Assembly (NCBI GenBank): GCA_902517505.1
Contig: CABYCL010000002.1
Coordinates: forward strand, 65,941-112,336
Direction: 5' to 3'
Source: an uncultured SAR86 cluster bacterium
GTDB lineage: Bacteria; Pseudomonadota; Gammaproteobacteria; Magnimaribacterales; D2472
DNA: 46,396 nt
The position numbers and the translations under genes were made by a program. The notes beneath the pieces were generated by a model, which had not been told where the DNA came from, did not search any database, and was given only the letters and a program-made list of their open reading frames with translations. This document shows, one piece after another, positions 4,697 to 44,387 of this stretch (the stretch's first letter is position 1; every line of letters begins with the position of its first letter).

Positions 4697-5128
4697 ATGA
4701 AAATCCTAGCAATGAAAAGTTCTGGTGATCGAACCTCAGTGAGTGTAGTTTTGAATGACGAAATAAATTCATATTCAATGACGCATCAAAGAAAGGAAAG
4801 ACCTAATTTGGAAATATTTTTAAGCAATATAGGACTTAATAAAACCTTTGCTCTTAAAGAAATAGATCTATTTGCTTTTGCAAATAATCAAAATTCTTAT
4901 ACAGCAACTAGAACCATTGCTAGTTATATGAAAGGATTAGCAGTCGCTTTAGAAAAGCCTCTAATTTCAATTAAAGATGAAAATATAGATGACTTTGACT
5001 CAGACTCTATTGCAATGAAAGCTAAAGAAATATTTATAAAAGAAGGAGTCGACTTAACAAAGTTTGATCCTAAAGATGCCAATCCATCATACGAAGAAAA
5101 AACTAAATTTAAAAAATTAAATGAGTGA
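4697..5128 (+). CDS. tsaB: Shortened TsaB-like protein (tRNA t6A synthesis)
   Basis: TsaB is the ASKHA-fold scaffold that pairs with TsaD to make threonylcarbamoyladenosine at A37 of ANN-decoding tRNAs. This 143-residue protein is well below the usual ~230. The N-terminal lobe is recognisable: a KILAMKSSG start like the family's ILAIDTS, then IDLFAFANNQNSYTATRTIASYMKGLAVALEKPLISI, which follows the layout of the GPGSFTGLRIG...KGLA...P segment although the glycine loop is altered. The C-terminal end NPSYEEKTKFKK resembles the P-x-YLR tail. Most of the C-terminal lobe (roughly 80-90 residues) is missing. Start 2 nt after adk; 8-nt overlap with uppP. Assignment rests on weak sequence likeness and length pattern, so moderate confidence. 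Confidence 0.7.
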   Translation: MKILAMKSSGDRTSVSVVLNDEINSYSMTHQRKERPNLEIFLSNIGLNKTFALKEIDLFAFANNQNSYTATRTIASYMKGLAVALEKPLISIKDENIDDFDSDSIAMKAKEIFIKEGVDLTKFDPKDANPSYEEKTKFKKLNE

Positions 5129-5909
5129 TTTTTTACTTAGTTTTATTCTTGGTTTAGTTCAGGGACTAACTGAATTTCTTCCGATATCGAGCTCTGCACA
5201 TCTGCTTTTACCATCATTATTATTTGGCACAAACGACTTGGGTTTATATTTTGATATATCTGTCCATGCTGGTACTTTAGCAGCAGTAATATATTATTTT
5301 AAATCAGATATTTTTTTAATGACTCAATCAGTTTTAACTAAAAATATCGACTTACAGAAATATAAAAATTTATCATTTCAATTATTAATAGCAACGATCC
5401 CAGTAGTGCTTATCGGATATATTTTTAAAGACTTAATTGAACAAAGAATTTTTAGTATAGACAGTATAGCTATATCTAATTTAATCTTTGCAGCTATTTT
5501 ACTTTTGGCTTTTTTAAAAAATAAATCTGGTAAAGGAATATATGAAATCACATTATTCACAGCATTATTTATTGGCATATTCCAATGTTTTGCTCTTATA
5601 CCAGGTGCATCAAGATCTGGAACAGCAATTACAGCAGCATTATTAATTGGGTTAAATTTAAAAGATGCATCCAAATTTGCATTTATGTTAGGTATCCCAA
5701 CTATACTCGGTGCATTGACCTTGCTTGTTATAGATGTTCAAAATACTGATATTCAATTTGACTTTTTAATCTTGATAACTGGATTTTTAACTTCAATGAT
5801 ATTTGCTTTCTTTACAATCAAGCTTTTCTTAAGTTTTGTAGAAAAAATTGGAATGATTCCCTTTGTTCTTTATAGAGTTTTGCTAGGAGTTATTTTATTA
5901 TTAATGTAA
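5121..5909 (+). CDS. uppP: Undecaprenyl-diphosphatase UppP (BacA)
   Basis: Integral membrane phosphatase that regenerates undecaprenyl phosphate for peptidoglycan and O-antigen synthesis; overexpression gives bacitracin resistance in other bacteria. 262 residues versus about 273 in E. coli. The two signature stretches are present: QGLTEFLPISSSAHLLL near residues 13-29 and LIPGASRSGTAITAALLIGL near 160-180, plus about eight hydrophobic segments. The start overlaps the tsaB-like gene by 8 nt, and rsmJ begins on the next base after its stop, so it sits inside the long plus-strand operon. Confidence 0.96.
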   Translation: MSDFLLSFILGLVQGLTEFLPISSSAHLLLPSLLFGTNDLGLYFDISVHAGTLAAVIYYFKSDIFLMTQSVLTKNIDLQKYKNLSFQLLIATIPVVLIGYIFKDLIEQRIFSIDSIAISNLIFAAILLLAFLKNKSGKGIYEITLFTALFIGIFQCFALIPGASRSGTAITAALLIGLNLKDASKFAFMLGIPTILGALTLLVIDVQNTDIQFDFLILITGFLTSMIFAFFTIKLFLSFVEKIGMIPFVLYRVLLGVILLLM

Positions 5910-17906: not shown

Positions 17907-17972
17907 TTTTTTTCTGAGTTGGGCTTTTCTTGATATCCCTGCTTAATCGATACATTAATAATGTGTTTTATT

Positions 17973-17998
17973 TTGACAAACTGTTATGGCATTATAAT
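17973..17998 (+). promoter_or_regulatory. Possible promoter of the ABM-fold gene
   Basis: Consensus TTGACA (17973-17978) and TATAAT (17993-17998), but with a 14-nt spacer, which is shorter than the usual 16-18. The 16-nt stretch containing the -10 also occurs at 17465-17480, just before the preceding gene. Start would be ~18005, giving a ~27-nt leader with TAGGAG. Confidence 0.4.
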
Positions 17999-18031
17999 TT
18001 TTTTAATTTTCATAAAATAATAGGAGAATTT

Positions 18032-18328
18032 ATGAGTGGTTTTTCAAATGTTGTTAGATTTGTTGTTAAAGAAGGATGCGAGACTGATTTCATAGAAGTC
18101 TTTAAGACTTTTTCAAATGAGGAAGGCGAAATATACTCTTTTCTTGTTCATACTGGGGATAGAGAATATGTTGCTGTAGGAACATGGGAGTCTGAAGATG
18201 CTTTAGTAAATGCAAGACCCGCTATGATTGGTAATCTTGATAAGATGAGAAATTTTCTTGAAGAAATATCTCCTGAGTTAGGAGTTACTGATCCGAGATC
18301 TGGAAAAATTGTTATGGAATTGAAGTAG
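18032..18328 (+). CDS. Antibiotic biosynthesis monooxygenase (ABM)-fold protein
   Basis: 98 residues from ATG 18032, which has TAGGAG 6 nt upstream; upstream in-frame codons are not needed. The pattern VVRFVVKEGCETDFIEVFKTF, then EGEIYSFLVHTGDREYVAVGTWESEDALVNAR is that of a ferredoxin-like dimeric alpha+beta barrel (ABM/YgiN-like). Such proteins include cofactor-free monooxygenases and haem-degrading enzymes, but many have no known substrate. No signal peptide. It ends at a strong terminator (18347-18369), so it is transcribed alone. One of several ABM-fold proteins in this window. Confidence 0.65.
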   Translation: MSGFSNVVRFVVKEGCETDFIEVFKTFSNEEGEIYSFLVHTGDREYVAVGTWESEDALVNARPAMIGNLDKMRNFLEEISPELGVTDPRSGKIVMELK

Positions 18329-23719: not shown

Positions 23720-24736
23720 ATGATTAGACCAATAATAATAAATTTATTTTTAATAATTCCTAACTTTTTAGTAAAGCTATTCTTTTGGAAAAAACCTCCT
23801 AAGATTAGAAATCAATATTTTGATATCCAATCCTATTTATATATTAACTTAATACCAAAATTAAATTTATATAAAATTTCAGATACTCAAATACCTTATA
23901 TAAGAAATTTAATTGAAAAAGGAAGAAGTAAATATCGCTTGTCAGCAAAACCAAAAAGTAAAGTACAAATTAATGATTTTTTTATTAGCGTTGATGAAAA
24001 TAAAAAAATTTTGTTAAGAGAATATGTTCCTAAAAACTTAAGTACGAGTAAGGTCATCCTTTATTTTCACGGAGGCGGTTATGTTCTTAACTCTGTAGAT
24101 ATTTATGATGAAGCAGTTTCATTTTTTTCTGATTGCTTAAAAGCAAGAATATTCTCATTGGATTATAGTTTGTCTCCAGAAAGTAAATTCCCTGAAGCAT
24201 TAAATGAATCAATAAAGGCACTTGATTGGCTCAATAACAAAGGATATAAATCTAATGAAATAAGTTTTTGTGGTGACAGTGCTGGAGCACATTTAGCAGC
24301 TTCATTAAATTATAGTTTGATAGAAGAAAACAAAGAATCCTCTTATAGTCAGTTATTAATGTATCCAATGTGTGATCCGAGTTGCAGTTCAGAATCGCAT
24401 TCGTTATATAAAGATGACTTTCTTTTAAGCCACAAAGACATGAAATGGTTTTGGAATAAATTAATGTTTCATCAAAAAGATTGTGAAAACGCTAAATTCA
24501 ATCTTTTAAAAACATCAAAGATTAAAAACTATCCTAAAACACTTATTGTAACCGCTGGATTTGATCCTTTATGTGACGAAGCTGTAGAATTTGAAAATAT
24601 AATCAAAAACCAAGGAGCAATTGTCAAAAGATTGCATTATCCATCTTTGTTTCATGGCTTTGCATCACTAACTAGACTTAGAGAACCATATGTTTCTGTA
24701 ATGGATTTTCTATTAGAATATAAAAAATTACTATGA
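23720..24736 (+). CDS. Alpha/beta hydrolase, hormone-sensitive-lipase type esterase
   Basis: 338 residues. The HSL-family oxyanion motif HGGGY (117-121) and nucleophile elbow GDSAG with Ser187 are clear; the triad is completed by Asp282 (AGFDPLCDE) and His312 (FHGFASL). The N-terminal 20 residues are hydrophobic, so membrane anchoring is possible. HSL-type esterases hydrolyse short or bulky esters. A TATAAT lies at 23711-23716, only 3 nt before the ATG, so the start site is uncertain; the ORF has no Shine-Dalgarno. It overlaps the next gene by 4 nt (ATGA), so the two are coupled. Confidence 0.85.
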   Translation: MIRPIIINLFLIIPNFLVKLFFWKKPPKIRNQYFDIQSYLYINLIPKLNLYKISDTQIPYIRNLIEKGRSKYRLSAKPKSKVQINDFFISVDENKKILLREYVPKNLSTSKVILYFHGGGYVLNSVDIYDEAVSFFSDCLKARIFSLDYSLSPESKFPEALNESIKALDWLNNKGYKSNEISFCGDSAGAHLAASLNYSLIEENKESSYSQLLMYPMCDPSCSSESHSLYKDDFLLSHKDMKWFWNKLMFHQKDCENAKFNLLKTSKIKNYPKTLIVTAGFDPLCDEAVEFENIIKNQGAIVKRLHYPSLFHGFASLTRLREPYVSVMDFLLEYKKLL

Positions 24737-27009
24737 TTCCAAAATTTTATTTAATTTTTACAATTTTATTTTTCTTTACTGGATTTACATTCTCTAATTC
24801 TGAGATATTTTTGCCAGCTCCTGATCATGATTTTGAGTCTTCAAGAAATATACCACAACCAGATTATTCTCAATCAGTTAATTGGGCTGCTATACCTGAA
24901 ACTAAAAATTTATCAGATACAGTTCCTTTGGGTGTCGAACTTCCAAAAGATGCTCCAAAAGCTCAAGTATTTTTTATTCATCCTACAGGATACCTTAATG
25001 TAAATGAGTGGAACGCACCTATGGAATTGGACAGCATAACTGAAGAGAACACCAAGTGGATGATGGCCAACCAAGCATCAGTATTTAATTCTTGTTGCGA
25101 CATTTGGGCGCCTAGATACAGACAAGCCAATGCAGCAGTATTCGTCATAGACAATGAAGAAATTATTAAAAAAGCTTTAAATTTTGCCTATCAAGATGTT
25201 GAAAGAGCTTTTGACGAGTTCTTAATGCGTCGCGACCCGTCTTTACCTTTTATCATCGCTAGCCATTCTCAAGGCACCAACCATGCTACTTCTCTACTTA
25301 AAAATCGTATAGCAGGAACAGCACTAAAAAATCAAATGGTTGCTGCTTATATCATAGGAGGAAGGACACGACTTAGTGATATCTATGATATGGATGATAT
25401 CGATGTTTGCGAAACAGCTCATGATCTTCATTGTGTTATACATTGGAGAACTTATGGCGATGGAGCCAAACTCGAGGATTGGGTGGATGATGATTCACCA
25501 CTTATCTGTGTCAACCCACTTTCTTGGAGTAACGATACCAAATTCGTTGATAGTAAAAAACACCTAGGATCTGTTCTTTTATCAGGATTTTTTCAGATTA
25601 GTTATTATGATGAGAATCCAACAGGGTTAACTTTTAGTCAGCAACCTGCTCCAATTCCAAACCTAACTTGGGCTGAGTGCAGAGACGGTGTGCTTATTGT
25701 AAAAGACCTTTTAGAAAGTCAGATGGAATCAGCATTAGGACCTTTGCAGAAAGCATTAGGACCAGAGGCTAGCAAAAATTATCATCTTCTTGACTACCCA
25801 CTTTTTCATATGAACATTAGAAAGAACTCAGTTACCAGGGTAGCTTCATGGCATTCCTCTAATAAAGTTTTAAAAAATATTGAAAAGGATTTAATTAAAT
25901 GGGATTCAATTAAGCTTCATAGAACTGGAACTGATGGTGACAATGAAACAACTCTTTGGTTGGCTGAAGAGATAAAAAAATCTAACTTAGTTGCCCAAGT
26001 AGATTTATTTAATTTTATCAAAAGAACTCCTGGCAAATCATATGTAACAAATGGTGTGAATACTGCTTATGGGCTCCCCTTATTTGATGGAGGTAGTACT
26101 ACCGAATATGGTGTTGAAGGACTTAATGGAAGTCTGAGCGATACAAATAGAATTGTCATCACAAAATTTGGATCAACTAAATCTAATGAACATACAATTA
26201 AATTAAATAAAGCTAGACAAAAAAATGAACATTTAGCAATTGTGGCTATTACAGATGTTGATCAAAACAAACCAGGTTTAGCAGTTTTAAATGCAGAGTC
26301 TTATAGAAATCCTTTTGGCCCCCCTGTATTACAAGTTGCCAGCACCGAAGCTGATTGGTTATTAAATTTAAATAAAGATGAGAAATTAACATTTTTTGCT
26401 GAATTTAATAATCAAAAATCTTCAGCGTCAAATATTCAAACAAAAGTAATAGGAAAAGATCCATCGCTAGAGCCTATAGTAATAATGACACCAAAAAGTG
26501 GCTGGTGGACTTGTACTTCAGAAAGAGGTGGAGGAATAACGATTTGGCTAAATGCCATTAGATATTTCTCAGAAAACCCCCCATTAAGAACAATTATATT
26601 TACGGCTAATACAGGACATGAATTAAGCCATTTAGGCTTAGATCATTTTTTAGAAAATAATCCTTCATTAGTTCAGGATGCCTATCTTTGGTTTCATCTT
26701 GGCGCAAATTTTGCCGCTAAAGATGGCTCTATTCTGTTGCAAACATCAACCCAAGATTATATGAATTTAACCATGAAACAATTTAAAAAAGAGAATATTA
26801 AAGGAACACAATCTTGGCCAATCTCTGAAAGGCCTTTAGGTGAAGCAAGGAATATTTTCGATGGCGGGGGAGAATATATTTCTTTACTTGGAACCAATCC
26901 TCTATTTCATAACCCAGATGACTTATGGCCTCACTCAATAGATATAGAAAAATTAGAAAAATTAAACAATGCAATGTTAAAAATAATTAACGATATTGCA
27001 AATTCATAA
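24733..27009 (+). CDS. DUF3089 alpha/beta hydrolase fused to degenerate M28-like domain
   Basis: 758 residues. Signal peptide (FYLIFTILFFFTGFTFS). Residues ~35-300 are DUF3089, with the elbow ASHSQGT (Ser179), WAPRYRQAN and HPTGYLN. Residues ~400-755 resemble an M28 zinc-exopeptidase fold: PIVIMTPKSGWW (581 on) is where M28 has the HxD metal residues, SERGGGITIWLNAIRYF stands in for the GADDNxSG loop, and RTIIFTANTGHELSHLGLDHFL keeps Glu630 of the EE pair position. The His/Asp zinc ligands are not there. So an active hydrolase plus a probably non-catalytic M28-like module. Overlaps the upstream esterase by 4 nt. M28 reading is from pattern alone. Confidence 0.75.
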   Translation: MIPKFYLIFTILFFFTGFTFSNSEIFLPAPDHDFESSRNIPQPDYSQSVNWAAIPETKNLSDTVPLGVELPKDAPKAQVFFIHPTGYLNVNEWNAPMELDSITEENTKWMMANQASVFNSCCDIWAPRYRQANAAVFVIDNEEIIKKALNFAYQDVERAFDEFLMRRDPSLPFIIASHSQGTNHATSLLKNRIAGTALKNQMVAAYIIGGRTRLSDIYDMDDIDVCETAHDLHCVIHWRTYGDGAKLEDWVDDDSPLICVNPLSWSNDTKFVDSKKHLGSVLLSGFFQISYYDENPTGLTFSQQPAPIPNLTWAECRDGVLIVKDLLESQMESALGPLQKALGPEASKNYHLLDYPLFHMNIRKNSVTRVASWHSSNKVLKNIEKDLIKWDSIKLHRTGTDGDNETTLWLAEEIKKSNLVAQVDLFNFIKRTPGKSYVTNGVNTAYGLPLFDGGSTTEYGVEGLNGSLSDTNRIVITKFGSTKSNEHTIKLNKARQKNEHLAIVAITDVDQNKPGLAVLNAESYRNPFGPPVLQVASTEADWLLNLNKDEKLTFFAEFNNQKSSASNIQTKVIGKDPSLEPIVIMTPKSGWWTCTSERGGGITIWLNAIRYFSENPPLRTIIFTANTGHELSHLGLDHFLENNPSLVQDAYLWFHLGANFAAKDGSILLQTSTQDYMNLTMKQFKKENIKGTQSWPISERPLGEARNIFDGGGEYISLLGTNPLFHNPDDLWPHSIDIEKLEKLNNAMLKIINDIANS

Positions 27010-27158: not shown

Positions 27159-27404
27159 ATGAATATATACGTAGGTAACATATCTTGGGGTTTAACAGAC
27201 CAAGATTTAGAAAATGTTTTTGCTGAGCACGGTACTGTGACTTCTGCAAAAATTATCACAGACAGAGCAACTGGGCGTTCTAGAGGTTTTGGTTTTGTTG
27301 AAATGAGTGATGGCGGCGAAGCTGCTATTGAAGCATTAAATGAAACTGAGGTTGATGGAAGAAGTTTGGTTGTAAACGAATCAAGACCTAGGGATAAGAG
27401 CTAA
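27159..27404 (+). CDS. RRM-domain RNA-binding protein
   Basis: 81 residues, a single RNA recognition motif: RNP2 IYVGNI (3-8) and RNP1 RGFGFVEM (43-50), with the typical ATGRSRG loop. Such short bacterial RRM proteins bind single-stranded RNA and some are cold-induced. ATG is preceded by AAGGA. No clear terminator follows, and its stop codon overlaps that of the convergent SnoaL-like gene by 3 nt. The 149-nt gap upstream shows no other gene. Confidence 0.9.
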   Translation: MNIYVGNISWGLTDQDLENVFAEHGTVTSAKIITDRATGRSRGFGFVEMSDGGEAAIEALNETEVDGRSLVVNESRPRDKS

Positions 27405-27796
27405 CCCAAACTTTCTAACGCTTCTACCATTTTTTGTTGTACTTTTTGAACTGCTTTAAATGGTCTAATCATAACTTTAAAGTTTACAATCTTTCCTTCT
27501 TCATTCCACTCGATAATATCAACTCCGTTGACTGATATGTCGTCGATATAGGTTTCAAATTCAAGAACAGAATTCATGCCATCATGAATTTCTTTCGTAT
27601 ATTTAAACTTCTCCATATTGAATGATTGACCAGCAGCGGATAAATACATCATGGTTATCTCTTTTCCCTCCATGGGCGTAAAAACTACTGGTGATGAAAA
27701 TATAGCATCATCTGCAATGAGATTTTCCAATAAACCCTGATCGTCATTCTTTAATACTTCATGCCATTTTTGTATAAGGTCTTTAGCTGTATTCAT
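27401..27796 (-). CDS. SnoaL / NTF2-like protein
   Basis: 131 residues from ATG 27796 (an upstream ATG at 27835 would place the start in the operator, less likely). Pattern LIQKWHEVLKNDDQGLLENLIADDAIFSSPVVFTPMEGKEITMMYLSAA and a beta-rich second half is that of the NTF2-like cone fold (SnoaL, ketosteroid-isomerase-like), with a hydrophobic pocket likely. No assigned substrate. TACAAT lies 7 nt before the ATG, predicting a leaderless mRNA. Convergent with the RRM gene and divergent from the ABM operon across a double palindrome. Confidence 0.65.
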   Translation of the reverse strand: MNTAKDLIQKWHEVLKNDDQGLLENLIADDAIFSSPVVFTPMEGKEITMMYLSAAGQSFNMEKFKYTKEIHDGMNSVLEFETYIDDISVNGVDIIEWNEEGKIVNFKVMIRPFKAVQKVQQKMVEALESLG

Positions 27797-27810
27797 TTTT
27801 AAAATTGTAT

Positions 27811-27851
27811 AAATATATTGATATATTTTAAACATAAATATATCGATATAT
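27811..27851. promoter_or_regulatory. Paired palindromic operator between divergent genes
   Basis: Two near-identical 14-nt palindromes: ATATATTGATATAT (27813-27826, within AAATATAT-TG-ATATATTT) and ATATATCGATATAT (27838-27851). Their centres are 25 bp apart, about 2.4 helical turns. They lie directly upstream of the -10 for the SnoaL-like gene (27809-27804) and upstream of the ABM gene at 27911. This is the layout of a dimeric repressor site; the regulator is not encoded next to it. Confidence 0.6.
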
Positions 27852-27910
27852 GTTCAATATAGTAGTATCTTATACAAACTGAAGAGATTTATGAATATAA
27901 GGAGATATAT

Positions 27911-28219
27911 ATGGAATACTTAGTTATAGCAGACTTCAAAGCGAATGAAGGCATGGCTGAAGACATGGCAAATGTTTTCAAAGAAGCTTTGGTTGATACA
28001 AGAGCCTTTGAAGGATGTAATGGAATTGATGTTTATTTTGAGGAGAAGACAAATACCTTCACTCTTATTGAGGATTGGACAACATTAGAAAATTACGAAA
28101 CCTATCTTCAATGGAGAATAGATACTGGTATTGCAGATGTTGTAGACCCATTACTTGTTGGGGGATGGGACGGAGTCGTTCAAAGTGTAAAGAGGCTTGG
28201 AGTACCTAAAGATATTTAA
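27911..28219 (+). CDS. ABM-fold small protein
   Basis: 102 residues: MEYLVIADFKANEGMAEDMANVFKEAL, then CNGIDVYFEEKTNTFTLIEDWTTLENYETYLQWR is the beta-alpha-beta-beta-alpha pattern of the dimeric alpha+beta barrel (ABM, PF03992-like). No signal peptide. ATG has AAGGAG 8 nt upstream. Its stop overlaps the next gene start (28219) by 1 nt. First gene of a small operon controlled from the double palindrome. Confidence 0.7.
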   Translation: MEYLVIADFKANEGMAEDMANVFKEALVDTRAFEGCNGIDVYFEEKTNTFTLIEDWTTLENYETYLQWRIDTGIADVVDPLLVGGWDGVVQSVKRLGVPKDI

Positions 28220-28584
28220 TGACAAATCAAGAGCAAATAGAAAAATGTATAGATCTTTATTATGAAGGATGTTGTGAGTCAAACTCTGAAAAAATTAAAA
28301 AAGCTTTTGATGAAAACGCAATGATCTCAGGTTACTTGCCTGACGGGCTGCACGAGATGAATCTTGATGATTTTGCTGGCTTTGTTGCTGCTCAACAACC
28401 TTCGCCAAAAGAGAAAGGAGATGAGGAATTTCTAGAAATAATTTCATGTGAAATAGTTGGAGATACCGCAATTGTTCAAATAAGAGAGGCATACTTGGGA
28501 ATGACTTTTATAGATTCATTCTCTTTTTTAAAAAAAGAAGATACCTGGAGAATATACACAAAATTATTCCATGTTGAATCATAA
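28219..28584 (+). CDS. Putative lumazine-binding / SnoaL-like protein
   Basis: 121 residues, no signal peptide. IEKCIDLYYEGCCESNSEKIKKAFDENAMISGYLPDG, then IISCEIVGDTAIVQIREAYLGMTFIDSFSFLKKEDTWRIYTKLFH is the NTF2-like fold of the 'putative lumazine-binding' family (PF12893). Function in the cell is unknown. One-base overlap with the ABM gene; ends 30 nt before the lipoprotein gene, which has its own RBS. Likely cotranscribed with both. Confidence 0.75.
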   Translation: MTNQEQIEKCIDLYYEGCCESNSEKIKKAFDENAMISGYLPDGLHEMNLDDFAGFVAAQQPSPKEKGDEEFLEIISCEIVGDTAIVQIREAYLGMTFIDSFSFLKKEDTWRIYTKLFHVES

Positions 28585-28614
28585 ATAAAACACATATATT
28601 TAGAGGAGAGAAAT

Positions 28615-29499
28615 ATGTTTAAAAATAAATTACTAATAACTAGTGTAATGGGTGCTTTTTTCATTGCGAGTTGTTCAAATGAGATGGCTGTTGAACCTAC
28701 AGCAGAAGATAATAGCTATTCAGAATTTGTAGATGCACTTGAAAGCACAGGCGGTAAAGCTTTCGCAGAATTTATGGCATGTGAAGCTGGAGCAGATTTT
28801 AATGCTGAAAATGCAACTAAGATGATATCAGATTGGCAAAAACTAATTACTGCAGAGTCATTATTTGGTGTTTGGGGATACGTTCCTGCAGCTGACACAA
28901 ATGCATTTGGAGATACATTATGGTGGGAATTAAATTGGAACTCAAAAGAAGAAGCAGATGCTGAGTGGAATGCCTGGGTTCAAAATGAAGATGCACAAGC
29001 ATGGGCTGAACAATATTCTAATGTAATGGTTTGTGATGGAGAAGGAAGAAATTCTTTTGACGGCGTATATCCAATTTTACCCAATACATATGGTGATGTT
29101 AATGAAAGTGGATATTTTTATGCTGAATTTCATCAGTGTAATTATATTGATGGATCTGATAGAACAGATGCTGAAGCATTTTTACCTGGTTTTACTAATG
29201 CAGTAAGTAATTCTGACTACAATGGTACTGGCTATTCATTTGCTAACTACTTTGCATATAAAAATAAAGATGGCTCTCATGTAGATGCTGATGTTGACTT
29301 TCTTTGGGGTAATTTTACAAAGGGTAAAGATGCAATGGATAAAGCAACTGAATCATTTGAAAATGATGTCAGAGACGAAATGTTTCCTTTATTTAGTGAA
29401 TTTGCAACTTGTGCTGAAGTACCGGATGTTTATCATGGTTGGACATTCTATGCAGGCGACAATAAAGAATTTATGCCTGATTTTACATCTAGAGATTAA
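28615..29499 (+). CDS. Lipoprotein with two ABM-like repeats
   Basis: 294 residues. Lipobox FIASC (Cys20). The mature part seems to be an internal duplication: FAEFMACEAG..FNAENATKMISDWQKLI..GVWGYVP..LWWELNWNSKEEADAEWNAW at ~48-145 and YAEFHQCNYIDGSDRTDAEAFLPGFTNAV..NYFAYK..VDFLWGNFTKGKDAMDKATESF at ~163-270, each ending with a Cys (VMVCDG, FATCAE) and an aromatic tail (FDGVYP, YHGWTFY). This arrangement fits a fused pair of ferredoxin-like ABM domains with a Cys pair in each half. RBS GAGGAGAG. Terminator at 29516. Function unknown; an exported relative lies at 43623. Confidence 0.65.
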   Translation: MFKNKLLITSVMGAFFIASCSNEMAVEPTAEDNSYSEFVDALESTGGKAFAEFMACEAGADFNAENATKMISDWQKLITAESLFGVWGYVPAADTNAFGDTLWWELNWNSKEEADAEWNAWVQNEDAQAWAEQYSNVMVCDGEGRNSFDGVYPILPNTYGDVNESGYFYAEFHQCNYIDGSDRTDAEAFLPGFTNAVSNSDYNGTGYSFANYFAYKNKDGSHVDADVDFLWGNFTKGKDAMDKATESFENDVRDEMFPLFSEFATCAEVPDVYHGWTFYAGDNKEFMPDFTSRD

Positions 29500-29515
29500 T
29501 TTTACTTAAAAAAAT

Positions 29516-29544
29516 GAAGCTGCTTTATGCAGCTTCTTTTTTTT
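29516..29544 (+). terminator. Intrinsic terminator of the ABM/lipoprotein operon
   Basis: 8-bp stem GAAGCTGC/GCAGCTTC (29516-29523 and 29529-29536), TTTAT loop and eight T to 29544. Confidence 0.92.
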
Positions 29545-43622: not shown

Positions 43623-44387
43623 ATGAAATACTTTTTAAGTTTAGCTCTGATGTTTAGTTTTATAGCTATAGCAGATGATCATGAGACACCAGAATATAAA
43701 TATGAACCAGATTGGAATAAGGCTGAATACTACATAGGCAATTTTAACGATAATAAAGATATTGATGATTTAGCCGCCTGGTATGGAAAATTTGCAAAAT
43801 GGACAGAAGGTCAAGGTGAAACTTATGACTCGATGACAGTTGCATTACTTCAACCATATTTTCATTCTGATATGAGTAGCGTTGATGTTATGTGGGTAAA
43901 CACATGGCCAACCCCAGTAGCTCAATTTCAAGGTATGGAAACTTGGATTACAGGCGGAGGTCCAAAACTTCTTGAATCGTTACCTGTCACAAACAGCAGA
44001 CAGATAGATACATGGCAATGGGCTATATCATTACCTGCATCCATGGACGCTGGAAATATGATGTATGCTACTTATGCTGATTGTTCTTTAGAGGAAGGAT
44101 ATGATATGCGACAGGTATATGATCTATACAAAGATTTTGCTATTTTTGCAAAAACGCAAGGTGATACTGTTGGTAGAAAAATGATCGTGCCAGCTGCTGG
44201 ATACGTATTACCAGATGGAGTTGATTTCATAAGATTGATGTATATGTCATCAATCTCAGAGAGAGGAACGAGCCAAAAATTATACCAAGATAAACTTGCT
44301 GACTCAGAAGCTTCAGCAAATTTAAAAGGTTTTTCATGCACTAACGCAAGATCATATTTTGGAATGTCAATGAGATCACCAAGTTAA
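43623..44387 (+). CDS. Exported protein with two ABM-like halves
   Basis: 254 residues, signal peptide MKYFLSLALMFSFIAIADD. Looks like an internal duplication: AEYYIGNFNDNKDIDDLAAWYGKFAKWTEGQGETYDS..VDVMWVNTWPTPVAQFQGMETWITGG (~35-130) and MMYATYADCSLEEGYDMRQVYDLYKDFAIFAKTQGDTVGRK..VDFIRLMYMSSISERGTSQKLYQDKLA (~141-235). The ferredoxin-like alpha+beta order is the same in both halves and like the lipoprotein at 28615. RBS GGGAGAT; its 13-nt stretch GGAGATATATATG also precedes the ABM gene at 27911. Terminator follows. Function unknown. Confidence 0.6.
   Translation: MKYFLSLALMFSFIAIADDHETPEYKYEPDWNKAEYYIGNFNDNKDIDDLAAWYGKFAKWTEGQGETYDSMTVALLQPYFHSDMSSVDVMWVNTWPTPVAQFQGMETWITGGGPKLLESLPVTNSRQIDTWQWAISLPASMDAGNMMYATYADCSLEEGYDMRQVYDLYKDFAIFAKTQGDTVGRKMIVPAAGYVLPDGVDFIRLMYMSSISERGTSQKLYQDKLADSEASANLKGFSCTNARSYFGMSMRSPS

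Follow-up and report, generated by a model that had tools for sequence, protein, structure and literature searches.

Using sequence profiles, structure prediction and comparison of gene neighbourhoods, we analysed four adjacent genes in a 46,396-nt stretch of SAR86 DNA (contig CABYCL010000002.1, positions 65941-112336), hereafter the window, which belongs to a genome of 1.06 Mb that is 82.85% complete. The genes occupy window positions 27401-29544 and encode a SnoaL/NTF2-like protein (SNO), a member of the antibiotic biosynthesis monooxygenase family (ABM), a lumazine-binding-like protein (LUM) and a predicted lipoprotein (LPP). All four had been proposed in a sequence-only reading of the window, and our analysis confirmed their presence. 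According to the list of open reading frames (ORFs), the plus strand carries a trio of ABM, LUM and LPP, and SNO lies on the opposite (minus) strand. The features discussed here are:

27401..27796, minus strand: SNO, SnoaL/ketosteroid-isomerase-like protein of 131 aa (Pfam, PDB, conserved start)
27812..27851: putative operator, two near-palindromes AATATAT(T/C)GATATAT at 27812-27826 and 27837-27851
27843..27871, plus strand: promoter-like element, TCGATA (27843-27848), 17-bp spacer and TATCTT (27866-27871), conserved in relatives
27911..28219, plus strand: ABM, single antibiotic-biosynthesis-monooxygenase-family protein of 102 aa without a signal-like start (PF03992)
28219..28584, plus strand: LUM, NTF2-like Lumazine_bd_2 protein of 121 aa (PF12893)
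28615..29499, plus strand: LPP, predicted lipoprotein of 294 aa with two fused ABM-fold halves (profiles, model)
28672..28674, plus strand: predicted lipobox Cys20 of LPP, followed by Ser (alignment of 65 rows)
28756..29076, plus strand: N-terminal ABM-like half of LPP, residues 48-154, Trp-rich, with Cys56 and Cys140 (model, alignment)
29113..29454, plus strand: C-terminal ABM-like half of LPP, residues 167-280, with Cys175 and Cys266 (model, alignment)
29516..29536, plus strand: intrinsic terminator with an 8-bp stem and then T8
43623..44387, plus strand: c45, second secreted double-barrel-type protein, a distant LPP relative (hhalign)

The stop codon of ABM and the start codon of LUM overlap (TAATG), LUM and LPP are separated by 30 bases, and SNO converges with an RRM-type RNA-binding gene, the two overlapping by four bases at their 3' ends (27401-27404). 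The start of SNO is probably at 27796, giving 131 aa, rather than at 27835, judging from its relatives: the Met at 27796 is conserved in at least 90% of 28 rows, and the ORF is 130-132 aa long in 15 of 18 cases, the exceptions being the window and locus L035 (144 aa) and locus L046 (138 aa). With this start, the divergent intergenic region spans 27797-27910.

The near-palindrome pattern gives four hits in this region (two sites on two strands) against 0.10 expected, and none of 100 shuffles reaches four. Of 19 loci, 14 have a promoter of the TCGATA-17-TATCTT type 5' of the trio (it is missed in L044, L046, L047, L050 and L139), with a spacer of exactly 17 bp in every match (16-18 bp were allowed), and a single further match occurs in 690 kb searched on both strands. 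These counts are descriptive, since the palindrome pattern was picked after the sites had been seen, the promoter pattern was built from the same sequences, and some of the loci are near-copies of each other. A hairpin with a T-rich tail is found 3' of LPP in 15 of the 17 loci fetched from the window's genus (window included). ABM, LUM and LPP have a common conserved promoter-like element and terminator, and the trio may be regulated as a unit. The sequence-only reading had extended one regulated promoter region and one terminator to all four genes; this holds for the trio and fails for SNO, which is divergent from the trio and convergent at its other end, so that the terminator of the trio is not common to it. 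For a sensing role, also suggested there, the promoter palindrome is the one supporting observation.

LPP and its partner proteins

LPP has no match in Pfam or NCBIfam (with the whole protein as query, PF03992 does not appear at E <= 1), and its profile retrieved nothing useful from PDB sequences. The suspected duplication in this protein was confirmed by profile comparison and by the predicted structure. The N half and the C half match each other with an hhalign probability of 93.4 (E 2.4e-7), their cysteines being in register, and the strand and helix order b-a-b-b-a-b of the ABM-type ferredoxin-like fold occurs in both halves of the AlphaFold model (mean pLDDT 86.5, pTM 0.82; residues 1-6 and 14-33 below 50). 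The ABM label of LPP comes from this predicted model. Its nearest folds in Foldseek and VIA searches include 2pgc (not recovered by the profile search of PDB sequences), sulfur oxygenase reductases (SOR), PenE, putative monooxygenases and the anthrone-oxidase-like 5f9p.

In the alignment of 65 LPP-family proteins, the lipobox Cys20 is present in every row and a lipobox-like pattern in 62, with Ser at the +2 position in 47 of these 62. Of Cys56 and Cys140, 57 rows have both, eight have neither and none has just one, and Cys175 and Cys266 are both present in all 65 rows. This pattern would be expected if each half contained a disulfide. W104, W108 and S110 are invariant, W74, W118, W121 and W130 are conserved at 91-98%, D141 at 98% and E105 at 88%, and the most conserved positions are mostly aromatic residues, glycines and cysteines. 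In the model, W104 and W108 plausibly face one side of the protein, toward a cavity, since they are four residues apart on the strand 102-108 and side chains alternate along a strand. No column of the 65-row alignment has more than 35% His, which makes a histidine-bound heme or iron unlikely. The earlier suggestion of cofactor-free chemistry is thereby favoured for LPP, other cofactors still being compatible with these data.

Three loci found with LPP, at 72-97% protein identity, belong to SAR86 cluster bacteria. At E 1e-4, the LPP profile matches 182 of 203 SAR86-order genomes, representing 20 of 22 genera. In a class-level sample it matches five of 369 genomes, four of them from the SAR86 order, and thus one of the 365 others (G368, E 2.6e-10); in a phylum-level sample of 299 genomes it matches the window's own genome and none of the 298 others, the two samples being overlapping and the profile search being liable to miss distant matches. 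The relative in G368 (L119:1273-2172) has, by eye, a signal-like N terminus and two similarly placed cysteine pairs. LPP gave no match among phages and plasmids at E 0.01 and none in PHROGs. A viral structure search returned, as the best hit, an ABM protein of Hyperionvirus (E 5.1e-6), which we took as a shared fold only. Two things appear to be new: the family of double-barrel lipoproteins, which spans the order and is absent from Pfam and NCBIfam, and the exchangeable barrel neighbour that is described below.

The partner proteins are easier to classify. ABM and LUM are clear Pfam members, scoring 33.7 bits against PF03992 (cut-off 23.1) and 75.8 bits against PF12893, Lumazine_bd_2 (cut-off 22.1), respectively, and LUM has a solved relative in PDB, 3duk (E 9.3e-5). 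SNO reaches 26.8 bits against PF12680, SnoaL_2, which is 0.2 bits below the cut-off of 27, and its best solved relative in PDB sequence comparison is 3f8x, annotated as 'putative delta-5-3-ketosteroid isomerase' (E 5e-18). SNO is present in 169 of the 203 order genomes and in all 22 genera. A signal-like start is absent from SNO (0 of 28 rows), LUM (0 of 36 rows) and the window ABM; together with the lipobox cysteine found in all 65 aligned LPP rows, this fits the cytoplasm-to-envelope span that had been envisaged for the locus. The window encodes a further single ABM-like protein at 17930-18328, which scores 19.8 bits, below the Pfam cut-off of 23.1.

The second double-barrel-type protein of the window, c45, has an esterase-like gene on one side and, on the other, an FAD_binding_3 monooxygenase that weakly matches squalene epoxidase. 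The C half of LPP is related to the N half of c45 (hhalign probability 97.3, E 2.7e-11), and the two halves of c45 match each other with a probability of only 58. Neither a Pfam match nor a useful hit among PDB sequences was found for c45, and another secreted protein, guessed to be a double barrel, likewise gave nothing useful against PDB sequences.

Gene neighbourhoods of LPP

The gene order in the window's genus is RRM, SNO (minus strand), a slot with ABM, c22 or neither, LUM, LPP, alanine dehydrogenase, an amidase in some loci, an epimerase (DFR), Steroid_dh and a GMC oxidoreductase. RRM and SNO remain close to LPP in all 17 fetched genus loci. Window positions 24733-27009 encode a 758-aa protein, possibly a fusion, in which DUF3089 lies toward the N terminus and the C side resembles peptidase M28 weakly, with a score below the cut-off.

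We counted two genes as co-localised when they lie within 2.5 kb of each other, considering genomes that hold both. This is the case for LUM and LPP in 25 of 28 genomes, c22 and LPP in 18 of 24, SNO and LPP in 21 of 39, ABM and LPP in 5 of 28, LUM and c22 in 19 of 50, ABM and SNO in 9 of 76, and c22 and ABM in none of 47. Uniform placement would give 0.1-0.3 cases per gene pair (0.1 for LUM and LPP), an expectation that ignores shared ancestry; as the genomes are related, these are not independent observations. Of the 43 LPP-A genes, 34 have one or more of the four partners nearby. Neither of the two outcomes that the sequence-only reading had named as refuting its proposal was obtained: the neighbourhood is conserved among relatives, and structure prediction shows an ABM-like fold in both halves of the lipoprotein.

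ABM and c22 use one position between SNO and LUM in the genus, where the 17 fetched loci have c22 in ten cases, ABM in four and neither in three; elsewhere either gene may adjoin LPP. A tree built from 35 LPP-A proteins requires at least three changes, by gain or by loss, in the presence of ABM near LPP, even when well-supported branches alone are considered. The c22 protein has no Pfam match, and its model (pLDDT 88.2) is a single ABM-type barrel that is closest to the epoxide hydrolase MupZ (Z 15.3, rmsd 1.8 over 116 residues; Foldseek E 1.3e-7), the next entry having Z 11.1. Its profile reaches PDB entries of the ABM fold weakly (best E 0.017). E77 is invariant in c22, and Tyr occurs at positions 61, 62 and 64, the latter two at 90% or more. 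Offsets of 20-23 at the ends of the VIA alignment place Tyr41 of MupZ near c22 residues 61-64 and Glu54 near 74-77, an approximate placement as it uses the ends only. Judged by hydropathy and inspection, 29 of 32 c22 rows begin with a signal-like stretch, and the three that do not are from genus g7. Crude hydrophobic runs gave 13 of 32 and a hydropathy window 31 of 32; the count was set to 29 because the g7 rows that passed the window are not signals by eye.

Outside this gene order, the same families meet again in other genera. LUM and LPP stand together in genus g3 in a different chromosomal setting, among lysC-like and dihydroorotase-like genes (from reading the translations). In genus g7, ABM is followed by c45 and then SNO in all four fetched loci (L146-L149), ABM being near SNO in five genomes of this genus, and in L126-L128 a weak, signal-less c22 relative, a SnoaL_3-type protein and LUM occur together (Pfam was run on L127 only). 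In f2g12, which belongs to a different family, c22 is directly 5' of a signal-less LPP relative in three of five loci (L133, L160 and L162). Inherited synteny does not easily explain these four associations. In L161, where LPP is missing, the ORF after c22 (4874-5530) starts LPP-like and, by eye, continues as a glutathione S-transferase, as after a deletion. SNO in f2g12 is near glutathione S-transferase and CoA-transferase genes.

Other settings of these families were recorded in passing. A secreted SnoaL-like gene stands beside LPP in G097 (L048; Pfam assignment from its counterpart in L053) and was left out of the partner count. In genus g5, the gene adjoining LPP in L056 (7208-8401) encodes 397 aa that begin in a signal-like manner, include a SnoaL_2 domain and end in a part resembling a double barrel. 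In family f3, LUM is flanked by a fatty-acid desaturase gene and a gene for a TauD-type dioxygenase (L135:6646-8806 by Pfam, L136:2536-4845 by eye).

The flanks of 35 fetched LPP-A genes, considered up to a distance of 9 kb, contain an epimerase/3beta-HSD-like gene in 27 cases and Steroid_dh and GMC oxidoreductase genes in 24 each, and the window flank carries steroid-type reductase and dehydrogenase families. The statement that no classical catabolic enzyme is present is accurate for the four genes themselves; it does not extend to the flanks, which hold redox enzymes. We considered the DFR-Steroid_dh-GMC flank as a part of the same system and set it aside, because LUM and LPP in g3 (L058-L061) lack it and because it occurs without LPP in L139 and L140.

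A possible module for lipophilic small molecules

We tentatively interpret the four genes as one version of a SAR86 module that handles a lipophilic small molecule from the envelope to the cytoplasm, and give this interpretation somewhat less than an even chance. LPP would be lipid-anchored to the envelope, probably at the outer membrane, both of its barrel halves would be closed by disulfides, and the Trp-rich N half would supply the cavity that captures the molecule. A single-barrel enzyme (the predicted secreted c22, or the cytosolic ABM in the window) and the cytosolic LUM and SNO might then perform cofactor-free acid-base chemistry, for which isomerisation, epoxide opening and hydration are candidate reactions. 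The neighbouring dehydrogenases and the CoA and beta-oxidation enzymes of the cell could complete the breakdown. As to the ligand, our guess is a steroid-, terpenoid- or polycyclic-like compound. The interpretation draws on the predicted folds, the homology of the LPP halves, the joint gain and loss of one cysteine pair, the lipobox, the promoter-like and terminator elements of the trio and the repeated association of the genes; from there, disulfides, membrane location, ligand class, the binding role of LPP and all catalysis are inferences.

Several observations weigh against such a module. No partner is found within 2.5 kb of nine of the 43 LPP-A genes, namely those of G097, G008, G046 and all six of genus g5, some of these partnerless genes being at or near contig ends. 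Other LPP paralogues were fetched at 27 loci, of which 24 lack every partner and three have LUM. LPP thus stands alone in many loci and must be able to act without the other three genes. Conversely, LUM is kept without LPP in L139 and L140 (c22 being present in L139), it stands beside other enzymes and without LPP in families f3 (L135, L136) and f4 (L137), and c22 lacks LPP in two of the five f2g12 loci (L161 and L163). The predicted compartment of the slot protein depends on whether it is c22 or ABM, a difference that a single pathway does not easily accommodate. A signal is also missing from the c22 relatives in g7 and from the LPP relatives in f2g12, the latter being outside the 65-row alignment. 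Profile comparison detected no sequence relation of the LPP halves to ABM or c22, the shallow alignments giving this comparison low power, and no known ligand or activity was found for LPP, c45 or c22. Finally, inherited synteny could account for most of the co-localisation in genus g1.

The most serious alternative concerns LPP itself, which may be a periplasmic cofactor-free enzyme (an oxygenase, isomerase or hydrolase) rather than a binder; we consider this somewhat doubtful. In its favour, the nearest folds of the model include known or putative enzymes (SOR with Z 15.5, PenE with Z 12.9 and 5f9p with Z 12.2), and S110, D141, E105 and the Trp cluster are conserved. The overall conservation is, however, mainly of aromatic, glycine and cysteine residues, the lack of a conserved His leaves neither a histidine-bound heme nor a SOR-type iron site supported, and the title of the best fold match, 2pgc, names no function.

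That the genes are independent and stay together merely by conserved synteny in small genomes is in our view unlikely. SAR86 genomes are indeed small and syntenic, the RRM, DFR, Steroid_dh, GMC and patatin genes are likewise collinear in g1, and partners are absent in g5 and from most paralogue loci. Simple retention of gene order does not readily account for LUM and LPP in the new g3 setting, the ABM-double barrel-SNO arrangement in g7, the pairing of c22 with LPP in f2 or the exchange of ABM and c22, nor for a trio with a conserved promoter-like element and terminator. An envelope heme/iron-handling or stress function of LPP, by analogy with the IsdG/HmoB and chlorite dismutase folds, is very improbable: Foldseek and VIA do match chlorite dismutase, coproheme decarboxylase, HmoB and DyP, but heme-degrading and heme-binding ABM folds (IsdG, HmoB, chlorite dismutase) have a conserved axial His, which LPP lacks (highest column fraction 0.35), its cysteines are paired, and no heme-metabolism family was seen among the window proteins scanned, which cover part of the window.

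We retain the module for a lipophilic molecule as a reasonable, tentative interpretation. In a more speculative extension, which we consider unlikely, SAR86 would have evolved an envelope pathway of its own from cofactor-free barrel-fold proteins: order-specific, lipid-anchored, disulfide-stapled double barrels would capture sterol-, terpenoid- or epoxide-type molecules at the cell surface and, together with exchangeable single-barrel (ABM or MupZ-like c22) and NTF2-fold proteins, open or rearrange them before uptake. The LPP profile matches 182 of the 203 order genomes despite the small size of SAR86 genomes, and the identity of the ligand would show on which dissolved lipophilic compounds these cells draw. 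The module also offers a short list of testable components, comprising one lipoprotein, one small-enzyme slot and two NTF2-fold proteins.

Comparison with known systems

SAR86 is reported to account for as much as 6% of the microbial community in the surface ocean, steroid side-chain and aromatic degradation is inferred from its genomes, and an isolate with a closed genome is described (PMC11582366). A search of open-licence PMC articles, mostly at the level of listings, found none that pairs SAR86 with "antibiotic biosynthesis monooxygenase" and none that names such a lipoprotein.

Among solved structures, 2pgc, a marine metagenome protein whose PDB title gives no function, superposes on both halves of LPP (204 residues, Z 15.7, rmsd 3.3), with 7% identity in the alignment and no profile match. 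SOR also superposes on both halves (Z 15.2-15.5). It is a cytoplasmic iron enzyme with a His-containing mononuclear iron site, whereas LPP is predicted to be a lipoprotein and has no conserved His. The ABM family PF03992 (SnoaB, ActVA-Orf6 type), of which the neighbouring ABM is a member, has the same half-fold as LPP; LPP differs from it in being a fused pair with a cysteine pair per half and a lipobox, and in falling outside the Pfam model. The c22 protein aligns with SnoaB (3kg0/3kg1, Z 10.7-10.8). Its closest counterpart, MupZ of mupirocin biosynthesis, uses Glu54 and Tyr41 for the acid-base opening of an epoxide (PMC8827043). The predicted fold of c22 is that of MupZ, and a correspondence of the Tyr and Glu positions is plausible from the approximate placement; c22 differs from MupZ in its low identity (16%), in the signal-like start of most of its members, and in standing beside LPP instead of in a polyketide cluster.

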